A stretch of DNA of 64,000 nt from an uncultured Pelagibacteraceae bacterium (GTDB lineage Bacteria > Pseudomonadota > Alphaproteobacteria > Pelagibacterales > Pelagibacteraceae): assembly GCA_902558835.1 (NCBI GenBank), contig CACEFK010000002.1, positions 62,001 to 126,000 of the forward strand. The letters run 5' to 3'. The translations under genes were made by a program, and so were the position numbers. Position 1 is the first letter of the stretch, and each line of letters opens with the position of its first letter. Positions 40,968 to 55,131 of this stretch are shown here, one piece after another. The notes under the pieces were generated by a model. It saw nothing but the letters and a program-made list of their open reading frames with translations, was not told the origin of the DNA and did not search any database.

Positions 40968-41854
40968 TTTCAAATAATAAATTAGCAATTTTTTTAATTA
41001 TAATCTCAGTTTTTTGTGGAACATTAATGTTAACCTTTTTAAAATTAGCACAAGAAGAAGTTAATGTTTATGTTGCAGGTTTTTTTAGATTTTTATTTGG
41101 TTTCCTAATTATTTTTCCCTATATGCTAAAATCTAATTTTACAGTGTTTAAAACAAATCATCATAAAAAACATTTTCTTAGAGCGGTTTTAAACTTACCT
41201 TCAATGTTATTATATTTCTCAGCCTTAGTAATGATGCCAATTGAAAAAGCTACAGCTATATCTTTTGTGGTTCCTTTCATAGTAACAATATTGGCAGTTT
41301 TATTTCTAGGCGAAAAAATTTACATATACAGGAGTTTTGCACTGGTTTTAGGATTTATAGGAATGTTAATAATTTTAAGACCAGGAATAATTGAAATTTC
41401 TCTTGGAGTATATATGGCACTGGCATCGTCTTTTATGTGGTCAATAGTGATTATAATTACAAAAACTATCGCTAAAGATGATAGTTCGATTACGATTTTA
41501 TCTTATGGATATACGTATATGACAATTTTTAGTTTCATTATTGCGTTGTTTTATTGGCAAACACCTAGTTTTCAAACTTTGATTTATTTATTTTTTGCAG
41601 GTTTATTTGGTACATTGTTGCATCTTTGCATTAATCACGCATACAAATTAGTAGATGTTAGTATGACACAACCATACTCGTTTTTAAGTTTAGTGTTTGC
41701 TTCTTTGATTGGATATTATGTTTTTAGTGAAACACCTGATCTCTTCACTTGGATTGGTGCTAGTGTTATATTTTTAGGTGTTTTAATCATGTCATATCGT
41801 GAAATGAAGCTTGATAAAGAAATCATTAGAAAACGTATAGATATTAAATCTTAA
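40964..41854 (+). CDS. EamA/DMT-family transporter
   Basis: 296 residues with ten predicted membrane helices in two EamA halves (each about 5+5; LVLGFIGMLIILRPG marks the end of the first). Export of amino acids or nucleotide-sugar-like metabolites is typical of the family; the substrate is unknown. The start is TTG inside the TTGA overlap with the glycosyltransferase stop, and no ATG fits. Its end overlaps convergent tctA by 4 bases. Confidence 0.85.
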   Translation: MISNNKLAIFLIIISVFCGTLMLTFLKLAQEEVNVYVAGFFRFLFGFLIIFPYMLKSNFTVFKTNHHKKHFLRAVLNLPSMLLYFSALVMMPIEKATAISFVVPFIVTILAVLFLGEKIYIYRSFALVLGFIGMLIILRPGIIEISLGVYMALASSFMWSIVIIITKTIAKDDSSITILSYGYTYMTIFSFIIALFYWQTPSFQTLIYLFFAGLFGTLLHLCINHAYKLVDVSMTQPYSFLSLVFASLIGYYVFSETPDLFTWIGASVIFLGVLIMSYREMKLDKEIIRKRIDIKS

Positions 41855-43350
41855 TTTTTCTTCTTAAAGGTTTTGTAAATATGCCAAACTACGATTAAAA
41901 TTGTAGTTGCTAGGATACATGCAGTTAATGTTCTGTCCCACAAAAATTCCCATGAACCATTACTTAATAACAAAGACCTTCTAAGATTTTCTTCCATCAA
42001 TCCGCCTAAAACAAAAGCTAATATTAAAGGCGGCATCGGGAAATCATATAATCTTAAAAAAGTTGCAACTACAGCAATCCCAATCATTAAATAAATATCA
42101 AAATTATTAAATGACATTACGTAAATCCCAGTAACAGAGAAAAATAAAATAAGAGGAATTAAATAATTTTTAGGAACAGCAAGAATCCTAGCTATGTAAG
42201 GAATAAGTGGTAAGTTCAATATCAGCAAAATTACCATTCCAATATACATAGACATAATTATTGACCAAAAAATCTCTGGATTAGTCATATAGAGTCTAGG
42301 ACCAGGCTGAACACCAAAACCTAAAAGAGCTCCTAGCATTACAGCTGTAGTTCCGCTCCCAGGAATTCCTAAAGTTAGCATTGGCACAAAAGAACCTGAG
42401 CAAGCAGCATTGTTTGCAGTTTCTGGTGCAGATAAACCATTTACACTGCCTTTACCAAATTTTTCTTTCTCTTCGTCACTAACTACATTCCTTTCCATTC
42501 CATAAGCTAAAAAAGATGCAATTGTTGCACCTGCTCCTGGAAGAACGCCAATTAAAAATCCAATTACTGAGGATCTTGGGATTGTTTTATACATTTTTGT
42601 TCGTTCTTCTTTATTAATTTTAATAGAACCAAGTTCAGTTAAAGAAACTTGTTTAGCAGCACTGGTTGGATCATTTCTTTTTAAAATAATTGTTAATGCT
42701 TCACTCATTGCAAAAGTTGCCATCACAACTAGTACGAAACTAATTCCGTCAGTTAAGTTCATATTATTAAATGTAAATCTTGTAATATCAGACAAACTAT
42801 CTTGGCCAACAGATGCTAACATCAATCCAAGGACTACCATCATCATTGCTTTTAAAAATTGTCCTTTAGAAGAAAAAGCAGCAATCGCTGTTAAACCTAA
42901 AATCATTAAAGCAAAGTAATCTGGTGATCTAAAAGATAAACTTACTTTTGATAAACTTGGTGCCATAAATAATAAATAAATTGCAGATAATGTTCCACCT
43001 GCAAACGAACTCCATGCTGCAATCGCTAAAGCCTTACCTGCTTTACCTTGTTGTGCCATAGGATAACCATCAAATGAAGTTGCAACTGTTCCAGGAACCC
43101 CAGGTGCATTTAATAATATAGAAGAAGTAGAGCCACCAAATACTGCTCCATAATAAACACCAGCCATCAAAATTAATCCTGTTGCAGGATCGAAACCATA
43201 GGTAATTGGTATCATCAATGCGATAGCTGTCATTGGCCCAAGACCAGGGAGCATTCCAATGATTGTTCCAAAAAAACAACCAACCATAACCATTAATATG
43301 TTCTGAAAAGTAAGTGCTGTTGTTAATCCAATTAATATTCCTTCAATCAT
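41851..43350 (-). CDS. tctA: TTT transporter large permease TctA
   Basis: Large membrane subunit of a tripartite tricarboxylate-type importer, 499 residues, about twelve helices. The repeated glycine/proline loops GMLPGLGPMTAIALMIP (N-half) and GVLPGAGATIASFLAYG (C-half) are the family hallmark. It works with a small TctB and the periplasmic binder TctC, using an ion gradient. It follows tctB with a 4-base overlap. Confidence 0.93.
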   Translation of the reverse strand: MIEGILIGLTTALTFQNILMVMVGCFFGTIIGMLPGLGPMTAIALMIPITYGFDPATGLILMAGVYYGAVFGGSTSSILLNAPGVPGTVATSFDGYPMAQQGKAGKALAIAAWSSFAGGTLSAIYLLFMAPSLSKVSLSFRSPDYFALMILGLTAIAAFSSKGQFLKAMMMVVLGLMLASVGQDSLSDITRFTFNNMNLTDGISFVLVVMATFAMSEALTIILKRNDPTSAAKQVSLTELGSIKINKEERTKMYKTIPRSSVIGFLIGVLPGAGATIASFLAYGMERNVVSDEEKEKFGKGSVNGLSAPETANNAACSGSFVPMLTLGIPGSGTTAVMLGALLGFGVQPGPRLYMTNPEIFWSIIMSMYIGMVILLILNLPLIPYIARILAVPKNYLIPLILFFSVTGIYVMSFNNFDIYLMIGIAVVATFLRLYDFPMPPLILAFVLGGLMEENLRRSLLLSNGSWEFLWDRTLTACILATTILIVVWHIYKTFKKKN

Positions 43351-43817
43351 CCCATAACTCCTATTGATTGTAAGAATGGATCCCTCAAATATATATCAAG
43401 AATACCGTGTAGGAGATACATAAAAGCAGCAACAAATGGAAAGGATAATAAAAACATTAAAATCCATCTTCGTTCTCCTAAAAAATAATATGACGCAAAT
43501 AAAAATAAAGACGTAGTTAAAAAATATCCAACTTTTAAAATTGTAGCTCCATAAATAATTGCAATTAGTATAAGTATACCTGTTTTCTTATATTCTAAAT
43601 TTTTATGATCAACTTTAATAGTATTTGGATCTGGTAAAATAAGTTTCAATCCAGAAAAAAATAACCCTGCATAACCTAAATAAATTGGAAACGTTCGTGC
43701 ATTAAATGGTGCATTTTCGTCAAATGCAAAAACTTGAATTTGGTAAGCAGTATATAAATAAAATGCTGAAAAAATAAAAAAGAGCAGTGATATAATTTTG
43801 GTAGTATTTATATTCAC
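43347..43817 (-). CDS. tctB: TTT transporter small permease TctB
   Basis: 156 residues with four hydrophobic segments, typical of TctB: an N-terminal helix with FYLYTAYQ, RTFPIYLGYAG, and a C-terminal FLLSFPFVAAFMYLLHGIL stretch. Encoded between tctC and tctA in the usual C-B-A order, 27 bases after tctC. Confidence 0.9.
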   Translation of the reverse strand: MNINTTKIISLLFFIFSAFYLYTAYQIQVFAFDENAPFNARTFPIYLGYAGLFFSGLKLILPDPNTIKVDHKNLEYKKTGILILIAIIYGATILKVGYFLTTSLFLFASYYFLGERRWILMFLLSFPFVAAFMYLLHGILDIYLRDPFLQSIGVMG

Positions 43818-43844
43818 TGCTCTAATTTCAAATAATCCTAAGGA

Positions 43845-44825
43845 TTATATAACTCCTAGTTTTTTCATAAGAGCTGTCATTTCTTGAGTTTGCTTTTCTA
43901 AGAAAGAAACAAACTTGCCTTCTGGATTATATATATTAACCCAAGCATTTCTTGCTCTGACAGTTTCCCATTCAGGAGTTTTTTGTACATCGCCAAGCAT
44001 TTTTGCAATAGCTGATCTATCAGCATTGCTCATACCTGGAGGGCCAAAGAAACCTCTCCAGTTAACGAATTGTACATCGTATCCTTGTTCTTTAAGAGTT
44101 GGTGCATCTGGTGCATCAGAAACCCTTGAAGGAGCAGTAATACCAATAATTCTCACTTGGTCTCTTGCACCCATCAATTCACCTAGACCAGTTGAAATGA
44201 TTTGAGTTTCTCCAGATAAAAGTCCAGCCAGAGCTTTTCCACCAGCATCATAAGGAATGTATTGAACAGCATTTGGATCTGCACCTGCAGCTTGGAAAGC
44301 TAAAGCGCCAATTAAATGGTCCATACTTCCTCTTACTGATCCACCAGCCATTTTAACTGAATTTGGATCTTTTTTGTAAGCATCAACTACATCTTTAAAA
44401 TTTTTAAAAGACGAACTTTTTGCAACTGCAATAGCACCGTAATCACCAATTACTCCAGCGATCGGTACAACATCTTTATAAGATAAAGTTCCACTTCCTT
44501 TTACATAACCTTTGTGTCTAGTAATTGATCTTAATACTAATGGTGTTGATTGAACTAAAACTGTATTAGCAGGTTTAGTATTAATCATGTAAGCTAAAGC
44601 TTTACCACCACCACCACCTGACATATTTTCAAATGATGCACTACTTAACATACCAGCTTTTGTTAAAGCTTCTCCAGTACCTCTAGCGGTTCCATCCCAA
44701 CCACCACCAGCACCACCACCAATTACAAAGTGCAATTTGTCAATTGCAACTGAGCTTGTAGTTGTTGCTGAGAATAATAGGATTGCTGAGAATAATACTG
44801 AAACTATTTTTTTTAAGTTTTTCAT
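43845..44825 (-). CDS. tctC: TTT periplasmic substrate-binding protein TctC (set 1)
   Basis: 326 residues. Signal peptide of about 27 residues, then the TctC pattern FVIGGGAGGGWDGTARGTGEAL and PYDAGGKALAGLLSGETQ. It captures a carboxylate in the periplasm for TctAB. A purine-rich ribosome site (GAGAGGG) precedes the ATG. The 260-base gap upstream (44826-45085) is A/T-rich and holds its promoter, but no clear box or operator could be singled out. Confidence 0.92.
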   Translation of the reverse strand: MKNLKKIVSVLFSAILLFSATTTSSVAIDKLHFVIGGGAGGGWDGTARGTGEALTKAGMLSSASFENMSGGGGGKALAYMINTKPANTVLVQSTPLVLRSITRHKGYVKGSGTLSYKDVVPIAGVIGDYGAIAVAKSSSFKNFKDVVDAYKKDPNSVKMAGGSVRGSMDHLIGALAFQAAGADPNAVQYIPYDAGGKALAGLLSGETQIISTGLGELMGARDQVRIIGITAPSRVSDAPDAPTLKEQGYDVQFVNWRGFFGPPGMSNADRSAIAKMLGDVQKTPEWETVRARNAWVNIYNPEGKFVSFLEKQTQEMTALMKKLGVI

Positions 44826-45085: not shown

Positions 45086-47092
45086 TTAACTTAACGGCCA
45101 AGGTAATTCTATGTACGACTGTAGTATACCTGGAGGGAAATCCATAACCATAAAATGTGATATTAGAGATAGAAAGATCCAAACTAAAATTCCACTTAAA
45201 ATGCTAAAAACTTTATTTTTCTTAGCAATTTTATTTAAAAAAATAATCACAAAAAAACCAATGGATACAAAGAAGCCAATAAATATTGATAAAAATAATG
45301 GTGAAATAAACCAAAATATAGTTAACCATTGATTTCTAATTTCTCTTTTTCCCTTTACTAAATTTTCTGCATCATGAAATACTTTTGCACCTGTGTTACC
45401 AAAGTACATTTGAATACCTATAGTAAAACAAAATATAATCATAAAAATACCAACACTTATTGGAAAAATTTTTCCCAAGTACTGCAAATGATCTGTAACA
45501 AAAATTGTGTAAATACCTAAAAAAGATAAAATAAAAAGAAATATCCATTGAGGTATTGTTTTTAAGTTTAATAATTTTGATTTTGATTGAGCAATTTCAT
45601 CTTTTCTATTTATAATTTTTATACCTGAGTAAATTGAGAAAATTGAAATTAAAATTAAAATTAAAAATATTGGTCGAGTAAATAATTCAGAAAACTTATA
45701 AAATTGCATTGTCTGATAAAGGTATGTTTCAATACTATCACTAAGGACAAACCCAATCATTAAAGCAACTCTAGAGTAATCAAATCTTTTCATGAATACT
45801 GCCAAAACCCCTATGAATGTTGCAAAAAGTAAATCCCCCCAAGATCTTGTAGAGTTAAAAATCGCGAACAAAATTAATGAAATTAAAAATGGTGCTAAGA
45901 CAGTAAAGTTAATTGTTGTTAATTGAGAAATTGGTCTTGCCATCGCTACACAAATGATTGCACCAAAAATATTTGCAACAGCTAAAGACCATATTATTGT
46001 GTAAATTAAATCAAGCTGTGTATCAACCATTTGGATTCCTGGATCAACACCCAACAAAATTAAACCACCCATTAATATTGCAGTTCCTCCTGAACCTGGA
46101 ATTCCAAACAAAAGAGTTGGGATAAGCGCTCCTCCTTCTTTTGAATTGGAACTAGACTCTGGACCTATGACGCCTCTAATGTCTCCGTTTCCAAAATTTT
46201 CATTATCTTTTACTGTTGTTTTTGCATGACTATAACTTATCCAATCAATACATGACCCACCTATACCAGGTATCAATCCAATAAAACTTCCAATGAAAGA
46301 ACATCTTAAAACTAAAAATTTATTTTTGAGAAAATCTTTTAGACCGATAAGCCATCCTGATTTTTCTAATTCTGCTTTTTCTGAAACTGCTTTATTTGAT
46401 CTAAGTAGTTCAACAATTTCAGGAAATGCAAAGATTGAAATAGCTACTACCATTAAATGAATTCCACCACCTAAATACATTACAATTGGATTCTGTACTT
46501 CTAAAACAGTGCTAAAATCCAATCTATATTCGGAACTTGCTGGTGATATACCAATACAGCCAATAATCATTCCAAGGCATGCTGCAACCAAACCTTTAAA
46601 TATACTTGAGCCTGTAAGTGTACCAACAACTGAAATCCCAAAAATAGCCAGCATCAACATTTCACCTGTACCGAATGCTAAAATAATTGGTTTAGCTATT
46701 TGAATTACTGCAGTTAATAAAACAGCACCAAATAAACCACCAAATAATGATGAAAAGAATGCGGCTGATAAAGCTCTTGCTGCTTGTCCTTTTTTTGCTA
46801 AAGGAAATCCATCCATAACAGTTGCTTGTGCTGAGACTGATCCCGGGACACCAATTAAAACTGCAGGAAATGTATCTGATGTTGCAACTACTGACATCAG
46901 TCCCATCATCATAGCAATGCCTGAAATTGGTTCCATGCCAAAAACAAATGGTAGCAATAGAGATAATCCAACTGTTCCTCCAAAACCGGGAATAACTCCT
47001 ACAACCAATCCAAGCATTACTCCGAGTATCAAAAATATTATTGATGGGCCCGAAACAATAGTTACCAGTGCTGAAAAAAGAGCTTCTAGCAT
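45086..47092 (-). CDS. Fused TctA-TctB permease (set 2)
   Basis: 668 residues. The first ~490 match TctA (VGVIPGFGGTVGLSLLLPF and GLIPGIGGSCIDWISY loops), and residues about 505-665 are TctB-like, with four helices (IPQWIFLFILSFLGIY through the C-terminus). Both membrane subunits are thus one chain, unlike the neighbouring three-gene set. It is downstream of its binder gene across an intrinsic terminator, so it is probably made at lower level. Confidence 0.9.
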   Translation of the reverse strand: MLEALFSALVTIVSGPSIIFLILGVMLGLVVGVIPGFGGTVGLSLLLPFVFGMEPISGIAMMMGLMSVVATSDTFPAVLIGVPGSVSAQATVMDGFPLAKKGQAARALSAAFFSSLFGGLFGAVLLTAVIQIAKPIILAFGTGEMLMLAIFGISVVGTLTGSSIFKGLVAACLGMIIGCIGISPASSEYRLDFSTVLEVQNPIVMYLGGGIHLMVVAISIFAFPEIVELLRSNKAVSEKAELEKSGWLIGLKDFLKNKFLVLRCSFIGSFIGLIPGIGGSCIDWISYSHAKTTVKDNENFGNGDIRGVIGPESSSNSKEGGALIPTLLFGIPGSGGTAILMGGLILLGVDPGIQMVDTQLDLIYTIIWSLAVANIFGAIICVAMARPISQLTTINFTVLAPFLISLILFAIFNSTRSWGDLLFATFIGVLAVFMKRFDYSRVALMIGFVLSDSIETYLYQTMQFYKFSELFTRPIFLILILISIFSIYSGIKIINRKDEIAQSKSKLLNLKTIPQWIFLFILSFLGIYTIFVTDHLQYLGKIFPISVGIFMIIFCFTIGIQMYFGNTGAKVFHDAENLVKGKREIRNQWLTIFWFISPLFLSIFIGFFVSIGFFVIIFLNKIAKKNKVFSILSGILVWIFLSLISHFMVMDFPPGILQSYIELPWPLS

Positions 47093-47105
47093 AAAAATAT
47101 TCTAT

Positions 47106-47137
47106 AAAAAAAAAGGGGGCATTGCCCCCTTTTTTTT
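47106..47137. terminator. Hairpin terminator/attenuator between tctC and tctAB
   Basis: GGGGGC (47115-47120), a 3-base loop, GCCCCC (47124-47129), flanked by nine A and eight T, so it is functional on both strands. In the minus operon it sits after tctC and before the permease gene, fitting partial termination that makes more binder than permease. Confidence 0.85.
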
Positions 47138-47154
47138 AACTAAAGGAAAAATAA

Positions 47155-48216
47155 TTACTTAGTGTTTTTCCACTCTTGTAAAAATTTCTCTGACTTAGAA
47201 TCAACTGAAGTAGCTTTTTTTAATGAAGATTTTAAATTTTTAGATCCAGTTACTTGATCGTATTTACCTAATTTTTTATTTAAAACTTTCATTGCCTCAG
47301 GATCATTTACAATAGCTTCTGCAGCTTTTTGCCAAGCTTTAACAACTTTTTTGGAAGCAGATTTTGGCAACATCACATATTTTTGTGTTGCAAAACCAGC
47401 ATAAAATAAAGCTGTCCAAGATTTAGCCTCTGTTCCTTTGAATTTATTTCCAGTCACTGCCTCATAAACTTCTGGAAATGAAGGTAAATCTGGGAAATTG
47501 GGATCTCTAGCAACTTTTCCATCTATTGGTGCGCCCCATGTCATAACAGCAACCATTTCACCTTTTTCAACTAATGGCTTAACATGTTTTAAGTAAGATG
47601 CTGTTGTTTGGTAATCAATTGTAGTTTCACCTCTTAGAATAGCAGCTCTTCCTGCTTTTCTTCCTTTCATACCATAAACAACATTTACATCTAATCCTAG
47701 CATATCAAATGCAAGGATAGGAACTGCATCTAAAGAAGTTTTACCTTGAGAGCCATAAACAAGTTTTGATCCTTTTAATTTATCAAAATCTTTAATGATA
47801 TCAGTAACTCCCATATCTTTTCTAACATATACAACTCCACCTGTTCCACTTGCAAAAATTGGAACCATGTTTTTGTATTGGTATCTTACTCTTTCATCTT
47901 TAAATATGAACGGTAACTGAACTGATCCTGATGTTCCAAATACAACCGAACCATCTTTATCTTTACCATGTTCAGCAAAGTATTTATTTGATGCACCAAT
48001 TGCTTTACCATCAGTAACATTTTTAACAACAACAGTTGGATTTCCAGGTAAGTTTTTACTGAAAGCTGGACCAATTGCTCTTGCCCAAGTATCAGATCCA
48101 CCACCTGCTTTGAATGGAATCCAAATTGTTACTGTCTTTCCAGAATAATCTACTGCTAAAGCAGAAGACGTAGTTATAATTATTGCAGCTAATGCTGTAA
48201 TTAGTTTTTTAATCAT
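47155..48216 (-). CDS. tctC: TTT periplasmic substrate-binding protein TctC (set 2)
   Basis: 353 residues with a signal peptide ending near residue 21 (ALA-VDY). The TctC core reads IPFKAGGGSDTWARAIGPAFSKNLPG. It closely resembles the paralogue at 50334-51392 in sequence and length. The start has a very strong GGAGGG ribosome site. It is divergent from the tctD regulator across 65 bases carrying TGACAA repeats, and its permease lies downstream, past the hairpin. Confidence 0.93.
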   Translation of the reverse strand: MIKKLITALAAIIITTSSALAVDYSGKTVTIWIPFKAGGGSDTWARAIGPAFSKNLPGNPTVVVKNVTDGKAIGASNKYFAEHGKDKDGSVVFGTSGSVQLPFIFKDERVRYQYKNMVPIFASGTGGVVYVRKDMGVTDIIKDFDKLKGSKLVYGSQGKTSLDAVPILAFDMLGLDVNVVYGMKGRKAGRAAILRGETTIDYQTTASYLKHVKPLVEKGEMVAVMTWGAPIDGKVARDPNFPDLPSFPEVYEAVTGNKFKGTEAKSWTALFYAGFATQKYVMLPKSASKKVVKAWQKAAEAIVNDPEAMKVLNKKLGKYDQVTGSKNLKSSLKKATSVDSKSEKFLQEWKNTK

Positions 48217-48246
48217 TTTTCCCTCCTCTAAAGTTTTAGGTTACTT

Positions 48247-48271
48247 TGACAAGCTGACAAGAAACTGACAA
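48247..48271. promoter_or_regulatory. Candidate TctD operator in tctC-tctD gap
   Basis: TGACAA occurs at 48247, 48255 and 48266. The last two are 11 bases apart, the direct-repeat phasing typical of OmpR-type regulators. The 18-mer CTGACAAGAAACTGACAA (48254-48271) matches 52937-52954 at 15 of 18 bases. It ends 10 bases before tctD. Confidence 0.6.
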
Positions 48272-48281
48272 AATCATTCTT

Positions 48282-48947
48282 ATGAAAGTGCTTATAATTG
48301 AGGATTCTAAGGAGTTTTCTAAATCGTTATTAGATTTTTTTAATTATGATGGTCACAGCACAGACCATGCTTCAAATTTATCTTCAGCCTATGATTATTT
48401 GTCAGTTTCCAAATATGATATAATTTTATTAGATATAATGTTGCCTGATGGAGATGGAAGAGATTTTCTAAAAAAAATAAGAAAACAAAATAAAAACATA
48501 CCTGTAATAGTTATGACAGCTAGATCTGAAGTATCTGATAGAATAGATTTATTAGATGTTGGTGCAGATGATTATATCATTAAACCTTTTGATCTAGCAG
48601 AGCTTGAGGCTAGATGCAGAGCAGTCCTAAGAAGACAGAGTGGACAAAATCAAACTTGTTTGAAATTTAAAAATCTATCTCTTTTTCCACTATTGGCTAA
48701 AATTGAAATCTCAGGGAAACCGACAAGTTTAAGAAATCGAGAATTAAGATTATTGGAAATATTTTTTAATTCTCCAAAAATTTTTTTTACTAAAGAGCAA
48801 TTAACTGATCGTCTATTCTCAATTTCTGAAACTATTTCCGAAAATGCTATTGAAGTTTATATTGCAAGATTAAGAAAAAAAATAAAGAATAGTAAAGCTA
48901 AAATCGAAAATGTTCGAAGTATTGGATATAGATTAATAGAAAAATGA
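48282..48947 (+). CDS. tctD: OmpR-family response regulator TctD
   Basis: 221 residues. Receiver domain 1-118 with acidic pocket Glu/Asp 7-8, phosphoacceptor Asp51 and Lys101; winged-helix DNA-binding domain about 125-219, ending RSIGYRLIEK. In known systems TctD turns on tricarboxylate transport on signal from TctE. It overlaps the kinase by 4 bases and is divergent from tctC; the TGACAA repeats abut its start, suggesting autoregulation. Confidence 0.92.
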   Translation: MKVLIIEDSKEFSKSLLDFFNYDGHSTDHASNLSSAYDYLSVSKYDIILLDIMLPDGDGRDFLKKIRKQNKNIPVIVMTARSEVSDRIDLLDVGADDYIIKPFDLAELEARCRAVLRRQSGQNQTCLKFKNLSLFPLLAKIEISGKPTSLRNRELRLLEIFFNSPKIFFTKEQLTDRLFSISETISENAIEVYIARLRKKIKNSKAKIENVRSIGYRLIEK

Positions 48948-50332
48948 TTTCATTAAAAACAAATAATTTTTCTTTGAAAAATAGATTGCTAATTCAATTA
49001 AGTATAATCGCAGCAATTTTATCAATTATTATATTTGTTGGTATCCGTACTCTTGTTACTCAAACATTGACCACTACACAAGATGGTTTGTTAAAAGCTT
49101 CTGTAAACTCAATAGTAGAAGGTGTGAGAGTTGGAAATAATGATATTTATTTAATCTGGCCATTTGAAACTTTTTCAACACTAGGAAGACTTGGGGAAGA
49201 TCGAATATTTTACAGACTAGATAAAAACAATGAGTTTCTTATTGGTTATAATAAATTTCCAAAATCAAAAATTTATGGAAATTTAAGCAAACCATCATTC
49301 AAAACTATAAACTATAAAGAAAAAAATATCCGAACTGTTTCAGTTAAACATTTATTTACAATTAAAGGTAAACCAACTGAAATTTACATAACAGTCGGAC
49401 AAACTCAAAATTTTCAATTTAATATTTTAAAAGATGTTACAACAAATATATTTGTGATTGTTTTTATTTTTTTTATCATATCTATCTTTTTATCATTTAT
49501 TACAACATCACTTGCACTAAGGCCCGTTAATTTATTAGCAAAAGAAGTTAAAGAACGAGGTCCTCATGATTTACAAGAAGTAAAATATCCATCACCTAAA
49601 GAACTTAAACCATTACTAAATTCTTTGAATGGATTTATTAAAAGATTACAAAATTCACTAAAAAAGACTGAAATTTTTATTGCAGAAGCTGCTCATCATA
49701 TCAAAACTCCACTAACTGTAGTAAAATCAGAAAGTGAATTAGCTCTAAGAAAGTCAAAAACACCTGAAAATAGAGTTCATTTAAGAAATATTATTAGATC
49801 AGTAGATCAGACAAGTAGATCATCAATACAATTACTAGAGCACGCTATGGTTATGTATAGAGCAGAAAAGAAACAGAGAGAGCTTTGTGAAGTCAATCAA
49901 ATAATTAAAAAAATTGCAGATAACTATAAGCCAGCAGCTAATTTAAGAGATATTAATATTAAACTTAATTTATTAACTGATTATAATATTGAGATTTTAT
50001 TAGACAGAATATTGCTTGAAGTAACTTTAAGAAATTTAATAGATAATGCTATTAAGTACTCACCCATTGAAGAAAATATAATTATAAAAAGTATTATAAA
50101 TAATAATAAGTATATAATTTTAATCGAAAATATTTCCTTAAACATGGATAAAATAAATAAAAATCAATTGGTTAAAAGATTTTCACGTGGAAAAAACCAT
50201 AAAAATATAATTGGAACTGGTTTAGGACTTGCGATTGTAACAGAGGCAGTTCAGGCTCTAAAAGGTAAATTTAATATCAAAATTGAAAACAAAAAAAAAT
50301 TAATAACAAGTATTCTTTTGCCTTTAAAATAA
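48944..50332 (+). CDS. tctE: Sensor histidine kinase TctE
   Basis: 462 residues. Helix 1 about 15-36, a periplasmic sensor loop of about 125 residues, helix 2 about 165-190, HAMP-like linker, H-box AAHHIKTPL with His251, N-box NLIDNAIKYSP, and a short G2 GTGLGLAI. The D/F box between them is reduced, as often in the TctE group. It overlaps tctD. The sensed acid is unknown but is probably the transported one. Confidence 0.92.
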   Translation: MISLKTNNFSLKNRLLIQLSIIAAILSIIIFVGIRTLVTQTLTTTQDGLLKASVNSIVEGVRVGNNDIYLIWPFETFSTLGRLGEDRIFYRLDKNNEFLIGYNKFPKSKIYGNLSKPSFKTINYKEKNIRTVSVKHLFTIKGKPTEIYITVGQTQNFQFNILKDVTTNIFVIVFIFFIISIFLSFITTSLALRPVNLLAKEVKERGPHDLQEVKYPSPKELKPLLNSLNGFIKRLQNSLKKTEIFIAEAAHHIKTPLTVVKSESELALRKSKTPENRVHLRNIIRSVDQTSRSSIQLLEHAMVMYRAEKKQRELCEVNQIIKKIADNYKPAANLRDINIKLNLLTDYNIEILLDRILLEVTLRNLIDNAIKYSPIEENIIIKSIINNNKYIILIENISLNMDKINKNQLVKRFSRGKNHKNIIGTGLGLAIVTEAVQALKGKFNIKIENKKKLITSILLPLK

Positions 50333-50333
50333 T

Positions 50334-51392
50334 TTATTGTTTTGTATCCATCCAAGAGGATAAATAAATGTAAGCTGGTTCGTCGAGAGTTGAGGCTTTT
50401 CGAAGAGCGAAAATTAAATTTTCTCCTATAATTTGATCATATTTACCAAGTTTTTTATTAATTATTTTCATTGTATCCAAATCATTTACGATTTGGCCTG
50501 AGGCATTTATCCATGCTGTTACAACGTTGTCAGATGCAGATTTAGGTAAAACTATAAACTTTTGAGTGGCAAAACCTGCGTTGAATAAAACTTGCCAAGC
50601 ATCAAAAGCCTCTTTGTTTTTATTTTTTATTACCTTATCGTATACTTCACTAAATGAAGGTAAATCCGGGAAATTTGGATCTCTTTTTATTTGTCCATTT
50701 ATAACAGATCCCCACGTCATTAATGGTACCATTTCACCATTATCTACAAGTGGTTTAACGTGTTTTAAATATGACGCTGTTGTTTGGTAATCAATTGTAG
50801 TTTCACCTCTAAGGATAGCAGCTCTACCAACTTTTCTACCTTTCATACCATAAACAACATTTACATCTAGCCCAAGCATATCAAATGCTAACACCGGAAC
50901 AGCGTCAAGAGAGTTGACACCTTGTGACCCAAAAACCAAAGAAGTTGATTTTAATTTTTTAAAATCTTTAATTATATTATTTATGCCCATATCTTTTCTG
51001 ATATAGACAACGCCTCCTGTTCCACTACCAAAAACAGGTATCATATTTTTATAATCATATCTCACTCTTTCATCTCTAAATAAATAAGGTAATTGAACAG
51101 AACCAGATGTTCCAAAAACAACTAGTCCATCTTTGTCATTACTGTGTTGAGAAAAATATTTATTTGAAGCACCTAGTATTCCACCTTCTGTTACATTTTG
51201 AACTATAACTTTTGGGTTTCCCGGCAAGTTTTTACTAAACGCTGGACCAATTGCTCTTGCCCATGCATCGGTTCCTCCGCCTGCTTTAAATGGAATCCAA
51301 ATTGTTACTGTCTTTCCAGAATAATCTATAGCGTAAGCTGAGGTTATTGTTGTAAGAACTAGTAATAGTACTGTTAATATTCTATTGATCAT
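50334..51392 (-). CDS. tctC: TTT substrate-binding protein TctC, orphan paralogue
   Basis: 352 residues, signal peptide about 1-21, core IPFKAGGGTDAWARAIGPAF. It is a close duplicate of the 47155-48216 protein: even the DNA for the post-signal region is nearly identical between 51288-51330 and 48114-48156. It has no permease of its own; the partner is probably the fused TctAB. It is co-directional with the TcuA-like gene 27 bases upstream, and presumably brings in that enzyme's substrate. Confidence 0.92.
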   Translation of the reverse strand: MINRILTVLLLVLTTITSAYAIDYSGKTVTIWIPFKAGGGTDAWARAIGPAFSKNLPGNPKVIVQNVTEGGILGASNKYFSQHSNDKDGLVVFGTSGSVQLPYLFRDERVRYDYKNMIPVFGSGTGGVVYIRKDMGINNIIKDFKKLKSTSLVFGSQGVNSLDAVPVLAFDMLGLDVNVVYGMKGRKVGRAAILRGETTIDYQTTASYLKHVKPLVDNGEMVPLMTWGSVINGQIKRDPNFPDLPSFSEVYDKVIKNKNKEAFDAWQVLFNAGFATQKFIVLPKSASDNVVTAWINASGQIVNDLDTMKIINKKLGKYDQIIGENLIFALRKASTLDEPAYIYLSSWMDTKQ

Positions 51393-51419
51393 ATTTAATT
51401 ATTAGCATTAAAAAACAAA

Positions 51420-52922
51420 TTAGGATAATTTAGCAGCATATTTTCCAGCTATTCTTCCGAAAACAGAACCTGACATTAACCCACTACCACCTGGATAATT
51501 TAAGTAAAATATACCACCAACCATTTCACCTGCTGCATACAAGCCTTTGATTGGTTTTTCTTTATTGTCTAATACTTCACACTTATTATTTATTTTTAAA
51601 CCCCCAAAAGTGAAAGTTATTCCACATGTAACTCCAAAAGCATAAAAAGGACTTTTGTCAATTTTATTTGCCCAATTGGATTTATTTATTTTTAAACCTT
51701 TGGTATTTTTTCCATCTTTAATTGTTGGATCGAACTTTACTTTAGTATTTACACTTTGATTGTATTTTAAAATTGTGCTCAGTGCTTTATTTGCATTAAC
51801 ACCTTTGAGTTTTTTGACGAGATCTTCTAAAGAATTTGCTTTTACTTTGGTAGCTGATTTAACATCATATTCATTGTAAAGCATTGGCCTTACTTTTTGA
51901 TCAAAGATTTGCCAAGCAAATTGTTTTGGTTGCTTAATTACTTCTCTACCAAATTTTGCATATGTGTAATTTCGAAGATCCTCACCCTCGTCAACAAATC
52001 TTTCACCATTTGCATTTAAAACAATTCCCCATGGATAACTTATTTTTCTGTATTTAGCCGCAATCTTAAGATCACTAAACTTTGGACCATTAAGGTCATG
52101 AAACACTGCGTGACAACCATTCCACTCACCATAACGAGCTGCATTATGTTCAAAAGCCATGGTTAATCCATCACCTGTATTATGTTTGGTACCTCTTACT
52201 TTAGCTTTATCCCAACCATTTCCAAGATATTTAGATCTCATTTTAGAATTTGCCTCAAAACCACCACAAGCAAGAATAACTGAATTACATAAAATTAATT
52301 CTTTTTTACCTTTGTGTAGAACTCCAATACCTTTTATTTCGTTATTTTTTTTTATTAATTTTTTAGCTGCAACTTCATATTTAATTTTAATTCCATTTTT
52401 TTTGGCTATATTAGTGAGTGATTTTATAAGACCTTCACCTTGATTTTTAACTTCTAAAGTTAAACCACCCCAATATTTAGTTACACCATTAACTACAAAA
52501 GATTGTTTCCCTTTTATTGGCACAAATTTTAATCCTTTCTTACTTAACCAATAAATCACTTCATGACTATCATTTACCAATGTTTTTGTAAGTTTTTTAT
52601 CTGTCTTATTTTTAGTAACTTTGATCATGTCATCATAAAAACTTCTTTTAGGATATTTTCCATAATCAATTTTTTTTGACTGCTTTAATTTGGGAATAAT
52701 TTTTTTTAAATCCGAAAAGTTATTATAAGCAAAACGATAAGAGCCATTTGTATATCTGCTATTTCCGCCAGCTTCTTTTTTGGAAGCTTTTTCTATTATT
52801 AAAACTTTTTTAGCCCCATTATCTCTTGCAGATAATGCAGCACAAAGAGCAGCATTTCCACTACCCACTACAACAACATCATATTTTTCCATATATGATT
52901 TTTTATAAAATTTTAAATTCAT
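51420..52922 (-). CDS. tcuA: FAD-dependent tricarballylate dehydrogenase-like (TcuA)
   Basis: 500 residues of the succinate dehydrogenase/fumarate reductase flavoprotein superfamily. FAD dinucleotide fold VVVVGSGNAALCAALSA (about 17-33), GGNSRYTNGSYR, and the C-terminal GLYAAGEMVGGIFYLNYPGGSGL. TcuA oxidises tricarballylate to cis-aconitate. A second ATG at 52892 begins just before the fold and may be the true start. The electron-transfer partner TcuB is not found nearby. Substrate is inferred from family and tct/prpF context. Confidence 0.85.
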   Translation of the reverse strand: MNLKFYKKSYMEKYDVVVVGSGNAALCAALSARDNGAKKVLIIEKASKKEAGGNSRYTNGSYRFAYNNFSDLKKIIPKLKQSKKIDYGKYPKRSFYDDMIKVTKNKTDKKLTKTLVNDSHEVIYWLSKKGLKFVPIKGKQSFVVNGVTKYWGGLTLEVKNQGEGLIKSLTNIAKKNGIKIKYEVAAKKLIKKNNEIKGIGVLHKGKKELILCNSVILACGGFEANSKMRSKYLGNGWDKAKVRGTKHNTGDGLTMAFEHNAARYGEWNGCHAVFHDLNGPKFSDLKIAAKYRKISYPWGIVLNANGERFVDEGEDLRNYTYAKFGREVIKQPKQFAWQIFDQKVRPMLYNEYDVKSATKVKANSLEDLVKKLKGVNANKALSTILKYNQSVNTKVKFDPTIKDGKNTKGLKINKSNWANKIDKSPFYAFGVTCGITFTFGGLKINNKCEVLDNKEKPIKGLYAAGEMVGGIFYLNYPGGSGLMSGSVFGRIAGKYAAKLS

Positions 52923-52936
52923 TTTAATTTGATATA

Positions 52937-52954
52937 CTTACAAGAAGCTGACAC
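52937..52954. promoter_or_regulatory. Candidate TctD operator in tcuA-abrB gap
   Basis: CTTACAAGAAGCTGACAC: two TKACAM half-sites 11 bases apart, 15 of 18 identical to the repeat before tctD. It sits in the 78-base divergent region serving tcuA-tctC on minus and abrB-prpF on plus. Confidence 0.55.
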
Positions 52955-53000
52955 AAAAAAATAATTTAAAATATAATTTAGTTATAATTTTTTTTTAAAA

Positions 53001-54056
53001 ATGATTGATGAAATTAAAAATATTGTCAAACAGAGCTATTTAGCACTTTTAATTGGCGCAATTGGAGGATTATTTGCATCTACTATCAATATGCCATTGC
53101 CTTGGTTGCTAGGTCCTTTGTTATCAAATTTGCTTTTATCTTTTACAAAAATTAAAATAACTTTTTCAAAAAAACTTCTTAGTCCTATTTTTTTAATAAT
53201 AGGAATTATTATGGGAGGAACCTTAAATGTTTCTTTACTTTATAAAATACATTTATGGATATTTTCATCCTTATCTATGATTGTTTATGTTTTTATCAGC
53301 ACAATTATAATAACTTTTTATTTTTTAAAAGTTTGTAAATTTGAAAAAATGAATGCAATTTTAGCTGCATTACCTGGAGCTTTTGTTCCAATTTCTACTG
53401 CATTATTAGAATTAAAAAACAATAATAACAAAAGAGTTTTGGTTCCTCAGGCTACAAGAGTAATTTTTATTGTGTGTATGCTACCTGTGATTTTTATTTA
53501 TCAAATGGGTAATGCTGAAATACAAGGCTTGGGAAATCAAAACATTTATGATCTTAAATATTTTATTGAAATAGTGCTGGTGTGTTTTGCCTGCTATATT
53601 TTTGCTTTGTTTCTAAAAAAATTTAATATTCCATCCTCTACTCTATTATCAGGTATGATTATTTCAGGAATTTTGTATACACTCGAATTTATTAACGCAA
53701 GATTTCCAGATATTTTTATTAATATATCTTTTATATTTTTGGGTACAGCTTTAGGAAGTAGATTGAATGGTTTAAAGATTAAAGAATTGTTATTTTATAT
53801 TTTTCACGGAGTAATTATCACAATAATTTTAATGACCCTGGCAGCTTTTGCATCTTATTTTCTTGAAATTGCTTTTGGGTTTGATTTTTTACCAACTTTT
53901 TTAAGCTTTGTACCTGGTGGTATACATGAAATGGTTATAATAAGTGTAGCTTACAATATAGATCCTATATTTGTTAGTTATCATCATTTCTTAAGAATAA
54001 TATTAATTGTACTTTTAATTCCATTTATAATAAAAAAATTTAATCATAATGAATGA
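53001..54056 (+). CDS. AbrB-type membrane protein (COG3180)
   Basis: 351 residues with about ten hydrophobic segments in two repeats; INMPLPWLLGPLLSNLL near the start and FVPGGIHEMVIISVAYNIDPIFVSYHHFLRI near the end are the family signatures. Often mislabelled ammonia monooxygenase regulator; it is a putative transporter frequently found beside TTT genes. Here it begins the plus half of the divergent tcuA region and overlaps the PrpF-like gene by 8 bases. Confidence 0.82.
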   Translation: MIDEIKNIVKQSYLALLIGAIGGLFASTINMPLPWLLGPLLSNLLLSFTKIKITFSKKLLSPIFLIIGIIMGGTLNVSLLYKIHLWIFSSLSMIVYVFISTIIITFYFLKVCKFEKMNAILAALPGAFVPISTALLELKNNNNKRVLVPQATRVIFIVCMLPVIFIYQMGNAEIQGLGNQNIYDLKYFIEIVLVCFACYIFALFLKKFNIPSSTLLSGMIISGILYTLEFINARFPDIFINISFIFLGTALGSRLNGLKIKELLFYIFHGVIITIILMTLAAFASYFLEIAFGFDFLPTFLSFVPGGIHEMVIISVAYNIDPIFVSYHHFLRIILIVLLIPFIIKKFNHNE

Positions 54057-55131
54057 TCAAGTTAAAATTCCATGTATGTTTATTAGAGGTGGTACTTCTA
54101 GAGGTCCTTATTTTTTAAAAAGTGATCTCCCTAGTGACATAAACAAAAGAGATAAAATTTTACTAGCAGCTATGGGCTCACCAGATCTAAGGCAAATTGA
54201 TGGACTGGGAGGAGCTGAGCCTGTTAAAAGTAAAGTTGCAATTATAGATAAATCTTCTGAAGAAGGTATTGATATAGATTATTATTTTGCCCAAGTAAAA
54301 ATAGATAAACCTATAGTCGATACCAAACCTTCTTGTGGAAATATTCTTGTGGGAGTTGGTCCTTATGCAATTGAAAAGGGATTGGTTGAGGCAAAAAATG
54401 GTGAAACATCAGTTATTGTTAGAGATAAAAATACAGGCATGAAGATTGAACAAATTGTTCAAACACCAAATAAACAAGTCCAATATGATGGAAATTTCAA
54501 AATTGATGGTGTTCCTACACCAGGATCACCAATTAAACTTAAGTTTTTAGATATAATAGGTTCACAAACAAATAAACTTTTTCCATCAGGAAATAAAATT
54601 GATGAAATAGATAAAATTAAATTTACTCTTATTGATTGCGCAGTTCCAATGGTTATTTTTAAGGCTACAGATTTAGGTTTAAAAGGATCAGAGAGTTTCG
54701 AACAGTTAAATGAAAACAAAACACTTATTGAAAAAATGAATACAATAAGGATTAAAATTGCAAAAAAAGTAGGATTAGGAGATGTAACTAATTCTGTTTT
54801 ACCTAAAACTGCAATTGTTATTAAGCCTGATAAAGCAGACATCAAATCAAGATACTTTATGCCATGGGATTGCCACCCTGCTTATGCAGTAACCGGCTCT
54901 ATGGCTTTGTTGGGTGCTTGTAAATCTAGAGATACAATTTGTTCTGAATTCTATGATAATTATTCTGAGAGTGGTGAATTCGAAATCGAACATCCATCAG
55001 GAAAACTCAAACTTAATTTCAATATAGTTTATGAGAATGAAAATATTAGAGATATTAATGTAATTTCTACAAGAAATGCGAGATTAATAATGTCTGGTGA
55101 TGTTTACATTAAAAAAAGTTTAATAGACTAA
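54049..55131 (+). CDS. PrpF-family isomerase/tautomerase
   Basis: 360 residues, diaminopimelate-epimerase-like fold. CMFIRGGTSRGPYFL near residue 7, AMGSPDLRQIDGLGGA and KPSCGNILVGVGPYA are diagnostic. Members isomerise aconitates (PrpF, trans- or 2-methyl-aconitate) or tautomerise oxalomesaconate (GalD). The prp operon at 23114 already has PrpD, so this copy next to tcuA and tct more likely handles an aconitate isomer. Exact substrate unproven. Confidence 0.87.
   Translation: MNDQVKIPCMFIRGGTSRGPYFLKSDLPSDINKRDKILLAAMGSPDLRQIDGLGGAEPVKSKVAIIDKSSEEGIDIDYYFAQVKIDKPIVDTKPSCGNILVGVGPYAIEKGLVEAKNGETSVIVRDKNTGMKIEQIVQTPNKQVQYDGNFKIDGVPTPGSPIKLKFLDIIGSQTNKLFPSGNKIDEIDKIKFTLIDCAVPMVIFKATDLGLKGSESFEQLNENKTLIEKMNTIRIKIAKKVGLGDVTNSVLPKTAIVIKPDKADIKSRYFMPWDCHPAYAVTGSMALLGACKSRDTICSEFYDNYSESGEFEIEHPSGKLKLNFNIVYENENIRDINVISTRNARLIMSGDVYIKKSLID

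Follow-up and report, generated by a model that had tools for sequence, protein, structure and literature searches.

The stretch of DNA analysed here (the window) comprises 64,000 nucleotides, positions 62001-126000 of contig CACEFK010000002.1 (assembly GCA_902558835.1), from an uncultured bacterium whose 1.09 Mb genome is 87.5% complete and which belongs to the same SAR11 family, Pelagibacteraceae, as HIMB114, an isolate in culture. Between positions 45086 and 55131 lies a run of genes for tripartite tricarboxylate transporter (TTT) proteins, a TctDE-like two-component pair, a flavoprotein related to the tricarballylate dehydrogenase TcuA, an AbrB-type membrane protein and an isomerase of the PrpF superfamily. 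Judged by sequence, these genes probably form a locus for the assimilation of C6 tricarboxylates, by which tricarballylate and/or trans-aconitate would be imported, converted to cis-aconitate and passed on through aconitase.

Organization of the locus

The gene set proposed in a first-pass annotation of the window is borne out: every locus gene is an intact open reading frame (ORF) at the position given below, and Pfam and NCBIfam models back TctA, the OmpR-type regulator, the 2CSK_N kinase, TcuA, AbrB and the PrpF superfamily. Just upstream, a further complete TTT system (last line) had been passed over. No Rfam match was obtained for positions 38000-60000 at gathering thresholds.

45086-47092, minus strand: tctAB, TctA permease with a fused TctB-like C-terminal tail, 668 amino acids (PF01970, 392 bits; tail by hhalign)
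47155-48216, minus strand: sbp1, TTT-type periplasmic receptor adjoining tctAB (predicted fold)
48254-48270, plus strand: putative regulator box CTGACAAGAAACTGACA in the sbp1/tctD divergent intergenic region (pattern search)
48282-48947, plus strand: tctD-like OmpR-family response regulator (Pfam; NCBIfam TctD as second-best model)
48944-50332, plus strand: tctE-like sensor kinase with 2CSK_N domain (PF08521, HisKA, HATPase_c)
50334-51392, minus strand: sbp2, second TTT-type receptor (69% identity to sbp1; tree)
51420-52922, minus strand: tcuA-like flavin adenine dinucleotide (FAD) dehydrogenase of a TcuB-less clade (NF006130; tree; R292; fold)
52937-52953, plus strand: second box copy with two mismatches in the tcuA/abrB divergent intergenic region (pattern search)
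53001-54056, plus strand: abrB, AbrB-type membrane protein (PF05145, 234.7 bits; TIGR03082)
54049-55131, plus strand: PrpF-superfamily isomerase, 4-oxalomesaconate tautomerase/YbhH-like, K62 and C96 kept (PF04303, NCBIfam, alignment)
48282-54056, both strands: five-gene block tctD, tctE, sbp2, tcuA, abrB, not present at this site in five relatives
41851-44825, minus strand: adjacent TTT system, tctC 43845-44825, tctB 43347-43817, tctA 41851-43350 (Pfam TctA, TctB, TctC)

The gene set in named genomes

Named genomes were scanned with an alignment of the receptor, and the best 80 of 555 relatives were kept as loci, their gene content being assigned by best blastp match to reference proteins at E 1e-10. 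The nine closest receptor loci among these 80 are from Pelagibacteraceae. TctAB is present in 76 loci and the isomerase in 56; classical TcuA occurs in 41, TcuB in 39, a divergent TcuA in eight, a regulator in 32, a kinase in 33, a GntR gene in 32 and aconitase in seven. TcuB accompanies classical TcuA in 39 of 41 loci and divergent TcuA in none of the eight, and no locus carries both types of TcuA; with kin loci counted as independent, these distributions correspond to a Fisher value of 1e-7 and a hypergeometric P of 0.002, respectively. The same module is found together with tcuAB on named plasmids of Thalassospira marina, Pacificitalea, Shinella sp. HZN7 (tcuAB about 17 kb off), Paracoccus marcusii, Roseivivax and Pseudosulfitobacter. 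In P. marcusii it forms a single run, receptor-TctD-TctE-receptor-TctAB-isomerase-TcuB-TcuA-GntR-AbrB. In Paracoccus liaowanqingii, about 13 kb separate a divergent TcuA gene from the receptor gene, and the 37 kb shown contain no annotated tcuB. The presence of AbrB had been regarded as unusual. This view does not hold, AbrB being found in 23 of the 80 loci, in HIMB114 and in five of seven further SAR11 stretches with TcuA; by these counts and the named loci, AbrB is an ordinary companion and the lack of TcuB the real variant. On a Hydrogenophaga plasmid (L034:8941-15507), a TcuA-like gene is placed between TTT receptors, a LeuCD-like dehydratase and PrpF, which may represent another, unassigned carboxylate route.

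The TcuA-like flavoprotein and the missing TcuB

The flavoprotein passes NCBIfam model NF006130 (567.7 against a cut-off of 369), which also accepts relatives from other contexts (L031, L034), and its predicted structure (predicted local distance difference test, pLDDT, 90.8) matches urocanate reductase and flavocytochrome c3 with Z scores of about 39-41. In a tree of 60 rows, for which 18 of 46 classical rows were kept, classical TcuA is set apart with a support of 100/100. Nine divergent rows from receptor/isomerase loci form one clade with moderate support (92/84), near 33 relatives from other contexts, the label of which needs two changes on the tree. By its sequence, the window protein thus falls into a clade distinct from that travelling with TcuB.

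The two groups share an arginine at position 292. It is present in all nine locus-type and all 46 classical TcuA proteins, whereas the 33 remaining relatives have glutamine (31), glutamate (1) or lysine (1) there. Within SAR11, all 20 ortholog rows, which stand for 14 distinct genes and overlap in part with the nine, have R292, and all five paralogs have asparagine instead. A positive charge at this position, common to the window protein and true tricarballylate dehydrogenases, would fit the accommodation of a third carboxylate. R326 was discarded as a marker, several SAR11 orthologs having lysine there. The second, paralogous TcuA-like gene of some SAR11 genomes (44-46% identity; L204-L208), which carries N292, has no recognised TTT receptor or isomerase nearby.

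TcuB, reported missing in the first-pass annotation, was found neither in the source genome, where the best TIGR02484 score is 36.7 against a cut-off of 246.6 and lies elsewhere in the genome, nor in any of the 19 SAR11 genomes that carry a TcuA-like gene (65-100% complete; one, G527, has only a 47% TcuA paralog). The same query recovered TcuB in eight of eight control records, its own record included. The locus counts, this search and the R292 pattern together make the absence of TcuB a recurrent variant rather than a gap, and they render tricarballylate-type oxidation well supported as far as sequence can tell. Salmonella TcuB is described as an FADH2:quinone oxidoreductase (PMC10468695, in part). 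The electrons of the window enzyme would pass to an acceptor other than TcuB. We tentatively entertain the possibility, without giving it even odds, that SAR11 possesses its own tricarballylate dehydrogenase lineage, which would dispense with TcuB, deliver electrons straight to a general acceptor and work together with TTT import and, in the source genome, with a two-component system of its own. In that case, C6 tricarboxylates would be an overlooked carbon source for some of the most abundant bacteria of the ocean.

The isomerase

The isomerase belongs to the PrpF superfamily (PF04303, 331.8 bits). Its earlier designation as a PrpF-family enzyme is correct at this level and with regard to the catalytic lysine and cysteine; the protein is not PrpF proper, scoring far below the cut-off of the PrpF model TIGR02334 (205 against 440.55) and just below that of the 4-oxalomesaconate tautomerase model NF033377 (430.4 against 440). 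Among solved structures, those closest in sequence are YbhH (6otv) and LigU-type enzymes (6p3h, 6p3j, 6p3k), followed by 3-methylitaconate isomerase and PrpF, which places the protein, on sequence grounds, closer to 4-oxalomesaconate tautomerase/YbhH than to PrpF. K66 and C100 are catalytic residues of LigU; they align with K62 and C96 of the window protein (numbering counted from the alignment). Among isomerases from such loci, the lysine is kept in 57 of 57 and the cysteine in 55 of 57. A function as aconitate isomerase would fit these features. TarA and TbrA are reported aconitate isomerases of the PrpF superfamily (PMC11495376, in part), and for PrpF an aconitate isomerase activity and an allylic mechanism, with Lys73 essential and Cys107 important, have been described or proposed (PMC5690661, in part). 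The window protein retains both of these residues.

The near-passing score with NF033377 and the conserved LigU-type pair could also point to a route of the gallate or protocatechuate type, the isomerase being a true 4-oxalomesaconate tautomerase. However, no LigB-type ring-cleavage dioxygenase was found in the source genome at its 87.5% completeness. Moreover, Roseivivax and Roseicyclus have a separate second isomerase gene adjacent to that for CHA aldolase, and these second copies form a group of their own, away from the TTT-locus copies (a label which itself needs two changes on a quick tree); the TTT-locus copy therefore has another job in those two genomes. We regard a gallate-type route as highly improbable.

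Transport proteins

The first-pass labels tctAB and tctC (twice) are upheld, with corrections. The TctA permease is recognised by Pfam, which yields no match for the TctB-like tail of tctAB, and neither sbp1 nor sbp2 matches TctC or any other Pfam family. Profile-to-profile comparison does align the tail with TctB (hhalign probability 93, E 2.6e-7). The AlphaFold2 model of sbp1 (pLDDT 91.2) has the receptor fold: the 11 best PDB entries are TTT/Bug-type receptors with Z scores of 23.7-25.7, and the next entry scores 14.0. On the strength of this predicted fold, sbp1 is assigned as a TTT-type receptor. A 90% identical receptor is present in five Pelagibacteraceae. In a tree, sbp2 branches outside sbp1 plus HIMB114 (supports 92/86 and 84/82) and is therefore unlikely to have arisen by recent copying. 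By analogy, sbp2 may act as a signalling receptor for the kinase. Receptors flank TctDE-like genes on both sides in L089, L117, L119, L123 and L133, in an orientation that differs from that of the window; in L119 and L123, only the kinase of the pair is recognised.

The upstream TTT system (41851-44825) occurs in two of five colinear relatives (L067 and L070 only) and is probably not part of the pathway. It comes and goes independently at the same site in relatives, and TctABC adjoins abrB in other members of the genus.

Regulation

The tctD product scores below the cut-off of the NCBIfam TctD equivalog (174.8 against 337); the TctDE-type arrangement, an OmpR regulator and a 2CSK_N kinase beside TTT genes, is present. 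TctD-TctE of Pseudomonas aeruginosa governs the uptake of tricarboxylates via opdH (PMC6403454, in part). A 17-base box, CTGACAAGAAACTGACA, begins at 48254 and recurs at 52937 with two mismatches. Both copies sit in divergent promoters and are the sole sites in the 64 kb at up to three mismatches (0.25 expected), the pattern having been derived from the 48254 site so that the 52937 site alone is independent. A looser pattern returns the same two sites (0.76 expected), with at least two sites in 20 of 100 shuffles. The core GACA-N7-GACA, which the box at 52937 lacks in its strict form, occurs in 13 of the 22 regulator-receptor regions scanned elsewhere (against a mean of 0.235 and a maximum of 3 in shuffles); it was picked after inspection of the promoter regions of 21 loci (three empty), most of which are reused among the 22, a choice that the shuffles do not correct. 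The 22 regions include four Thalassospira and two Celeribacter loci and some coding DNA. The loci L066-L074 and L094 of Pelagibacteraceae and the stretches L195-L203 showed no TctDE-like genes, whole genomes not having been searched.

SAR11 relatives and the variable site

The locus occupies a variable site. Five Pelagibacteraceae (L066-L070) match the window colinearly on both flanks and lack 48282-54056, apart from sequence of sbp2 that cross-matches sbp1; their isomerase and receptor genes lie 150-154 bp apart in four cases and, by ORF call, 289 bp apart in L066. In L159-L162, from other members of the genus, TctABC-AbrB is followed by the same GT9 glycosyltransferase gene as in the window. 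The segment 40964-56069, between an EamA transporter gene and this GT9 gene, holds different transporter modules in different SAR11 genomes.

A set of 100 near relatives besides the source genome includes none with TcuA (E 1e-30), one with a receptor (36% identity) and 18 with AbrB. Of 397 family genomes, 19 have a TcuA match, 18 of which are orthologs (one partial; the source genome counted), and 13 have an isomerase ortholog of at least 63% identity, accompanied in 11 by a TcuA ortholog. In G508, the order is AcnA-isomerase-TctAB-receptor-Ldh-TcuA/AbrB, with AcnA above cut-off. Other SAR11 TcuA clusters combine varying sets of AbrB, IclR, MmgE/PrpD, isocitrate lyase (ICL)-like, Ldh_2 and AcnA genes. 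The HIMB114-type clusters (L046, L195-L200) join TcuA to AcnA-family, Ldh_2, MmgE/PrpD, ICL/phosphoenolpyruvate (PEP)-mutase-like and AbrB genes, some with an IPMDH-like gene, and may make up a larger, unassigned carboxylate pathway. At L195:12200-15966, an AcnA-family enzyme that passes AcnA and fails AcnD adjoins a long PrpF-type isomerase, as in other SAR11 clusters.

The same architecture might serve a branched, methylated or hydroxylated tricarboxylate, such as isocitrate isomers or homo- and methyl-analogues, the isomerase being a general 1,3-allylic enzyme: among the 80 named loci, IPMDH-like genes (29), D-2-hydroxyacid dehydrogenase (26) and Ldh_2 (13) are frequent additions, and the HIMB114 cluster contains MmgE/PrpD and ICL/PEP-mutase-like genes. 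We consider this unlikely for the window, the locus of which has none of those extra genes; moreover, all three of the linked SAR11 aconitases that were scanned score as AcnA but fall short of AcnD, and the lyase-like gene falls short of PrpB (185.9 against 354.4). A methylcitrate cycle for the HIMB114-type clusters was set aside on account of the same shortfalls.

Alternatively, two systems might lie side by side, a receptor-TctAB-isomerase set for trans-aconitate and a TcuA-sbp2 pair for an unrelated carboxylate, with AbrB belonging to the upstream TTT system. The five relatives that retain receptor, TctAB and isomerase without the five-gene block are consistent with such a division, as are G737, where TctAB-receptor-isomerase occupies this site while TcuA and AbrB lie together in another cluster, and the TctABC-AbrB arrangement of L159-L162 and L164. 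In contrast, the box lies in both divergent promoters, TcuA accompanies the isomerase in the 11 of 13 SAR11 genomes mentioned above, and the abrB and isomerase genes overlap by eight bases. A partition into two systems thus appears decidedly unlikely.

Proposed pathway

In the C6-tricarboxylate pathway preferred here, the two TTT receptors and the fused TctAB permease would import tricarballylate and/or trans-aconitate. The TcuA-like flavoprotein would desaturate tricarballylate to aconitate, and the PrpF-superfamily enzyme, acting through Lys62 and Cys96, would shift the double bond of trans-aconitate (a 1,3-allylic isomerisation) in the direction of cis-aconitate. The housekeeping aconitase, the single one found in the source genome, would then pass cis-aconitate into the tricarboxylic acid (TCA) cycle. 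The TctDE-like pair would sense the acid and, via the repeat box in the two divergent promoters, control the receptor/permease, tcuA-sbp2 and abrB-isomerase units, within which AbrB has a putative role only. The receptor-TctAB-isomerase core might alone suffice for trans-aconitate, TcuA extending the range to tricarballylate. Import followed by oxidation and isomerisation had been proposed at first pass. The proposal is sustained in that the same receptor/TctAB/isomerase module accompanies tcuAB in many named bacteria and AcnA in SAR11, and is qualified by the distinct clade of TcuA and by an isomerase other than PrpF proper.

Several observations weigh against this pathway. The flavoprotein fails the TcuA model TIGR02485 (247.1 against 372.55), which three classical TcuA rows scanned pass, and shares only 33-37% identity with the 15 classical rows compared. 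TcuA-like genes are common (91 of 385 genomes of the class at E 1e-60) and many of the divergent type adjoin quite different genes; a TcuA-like gene by itself says little on function. The eight divergent-TcuA loci without TcuB include five from Pelagibacteraceae and two (L094, L111) in which the gene reaches the edge of the available DNA and the absence is uncertain, and the incompleteness of the source assembly and of the 19 SAR11 assemblies limits the absence of TcuB generally. The isomerase is nearest to the 4-oxalomesaconate tautomerase model and not to a known aconitate isomerase. Finally, nine of the 22 regulator-receptor regions have no box, and 12 of the 13 boxes point toward the receptor, that of the window toward tctD.

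The proposed pathway provides proteins labelled only 'tricarboxylate transporter' or '4-oxalomesaconate tautomerase' with a testable substrate class. It further predicts that a tricarballylate dehydrogenase can do without TcuB, with R292 offered as a marker residue. SAR11 genomes are streamlined and have few sensor kinases, a setting in which a carbon-source island equipped with a sensor deserves attention. The orthologous cluster of HIMB114 allows direct testing.

Comparison with known systems

A literature search returned nothing on this locus, on trans-aconitate in SAR11 or on tricarboxylates in HIMB114, a weak negative that covers titles and the starts of abstracts of open-licence papers. 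The tcuABC operon of Salmonella is regulated by TcuR. Like the window, this tricarballylate operon employs a TcuA-type dehydrogenase feeding cis-aconitate (PMC10468695, in part); the window differs in having neither TcuB nor the TcuC carrier, in its TTT import and TctDE-like pair, and in the divergent clade of its TcuA. The tar system for trans-aconitate in Bacillus velezensis (TarA/TarB/TarR; PMC11495376, in part) likewise pairs a transporter with a PrpF-superfamily isomerase, whereas its carrier is of the major facilitator superfamily type and its regulator is another; the likeness of the isomerases is one of superfamily and not of direct sequence comparison. Alphaproteobacterial TTT-tcuAB loci, exemplified by Paracoccus marcusii pCP157_01 and Thalassospira marina pCSC3H3, resemble the window in their receptor(s), TctAB of fused length, TctDE-like pair and 4-oxalomesaconate-tautomerase-like isomerase, and in P. 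marcusii also in AbrB, and differ from it by classical TcuA with TcuB and by a GntR gene. The clusters of HIMB114 and other Pelagibacteraceae contain an orthologous TcuA (66-72%) and, in several cases, AbrB, the isomerase and TTT genes. In these clusters, however, a linked aconitase, Ldh, further genes and, in several, an IclR-type gene are present, and no TctDE-like genes were seen there. Such gene sets are hence known elsewhere; new here is the TcuB-less version beside its own sensor genes.

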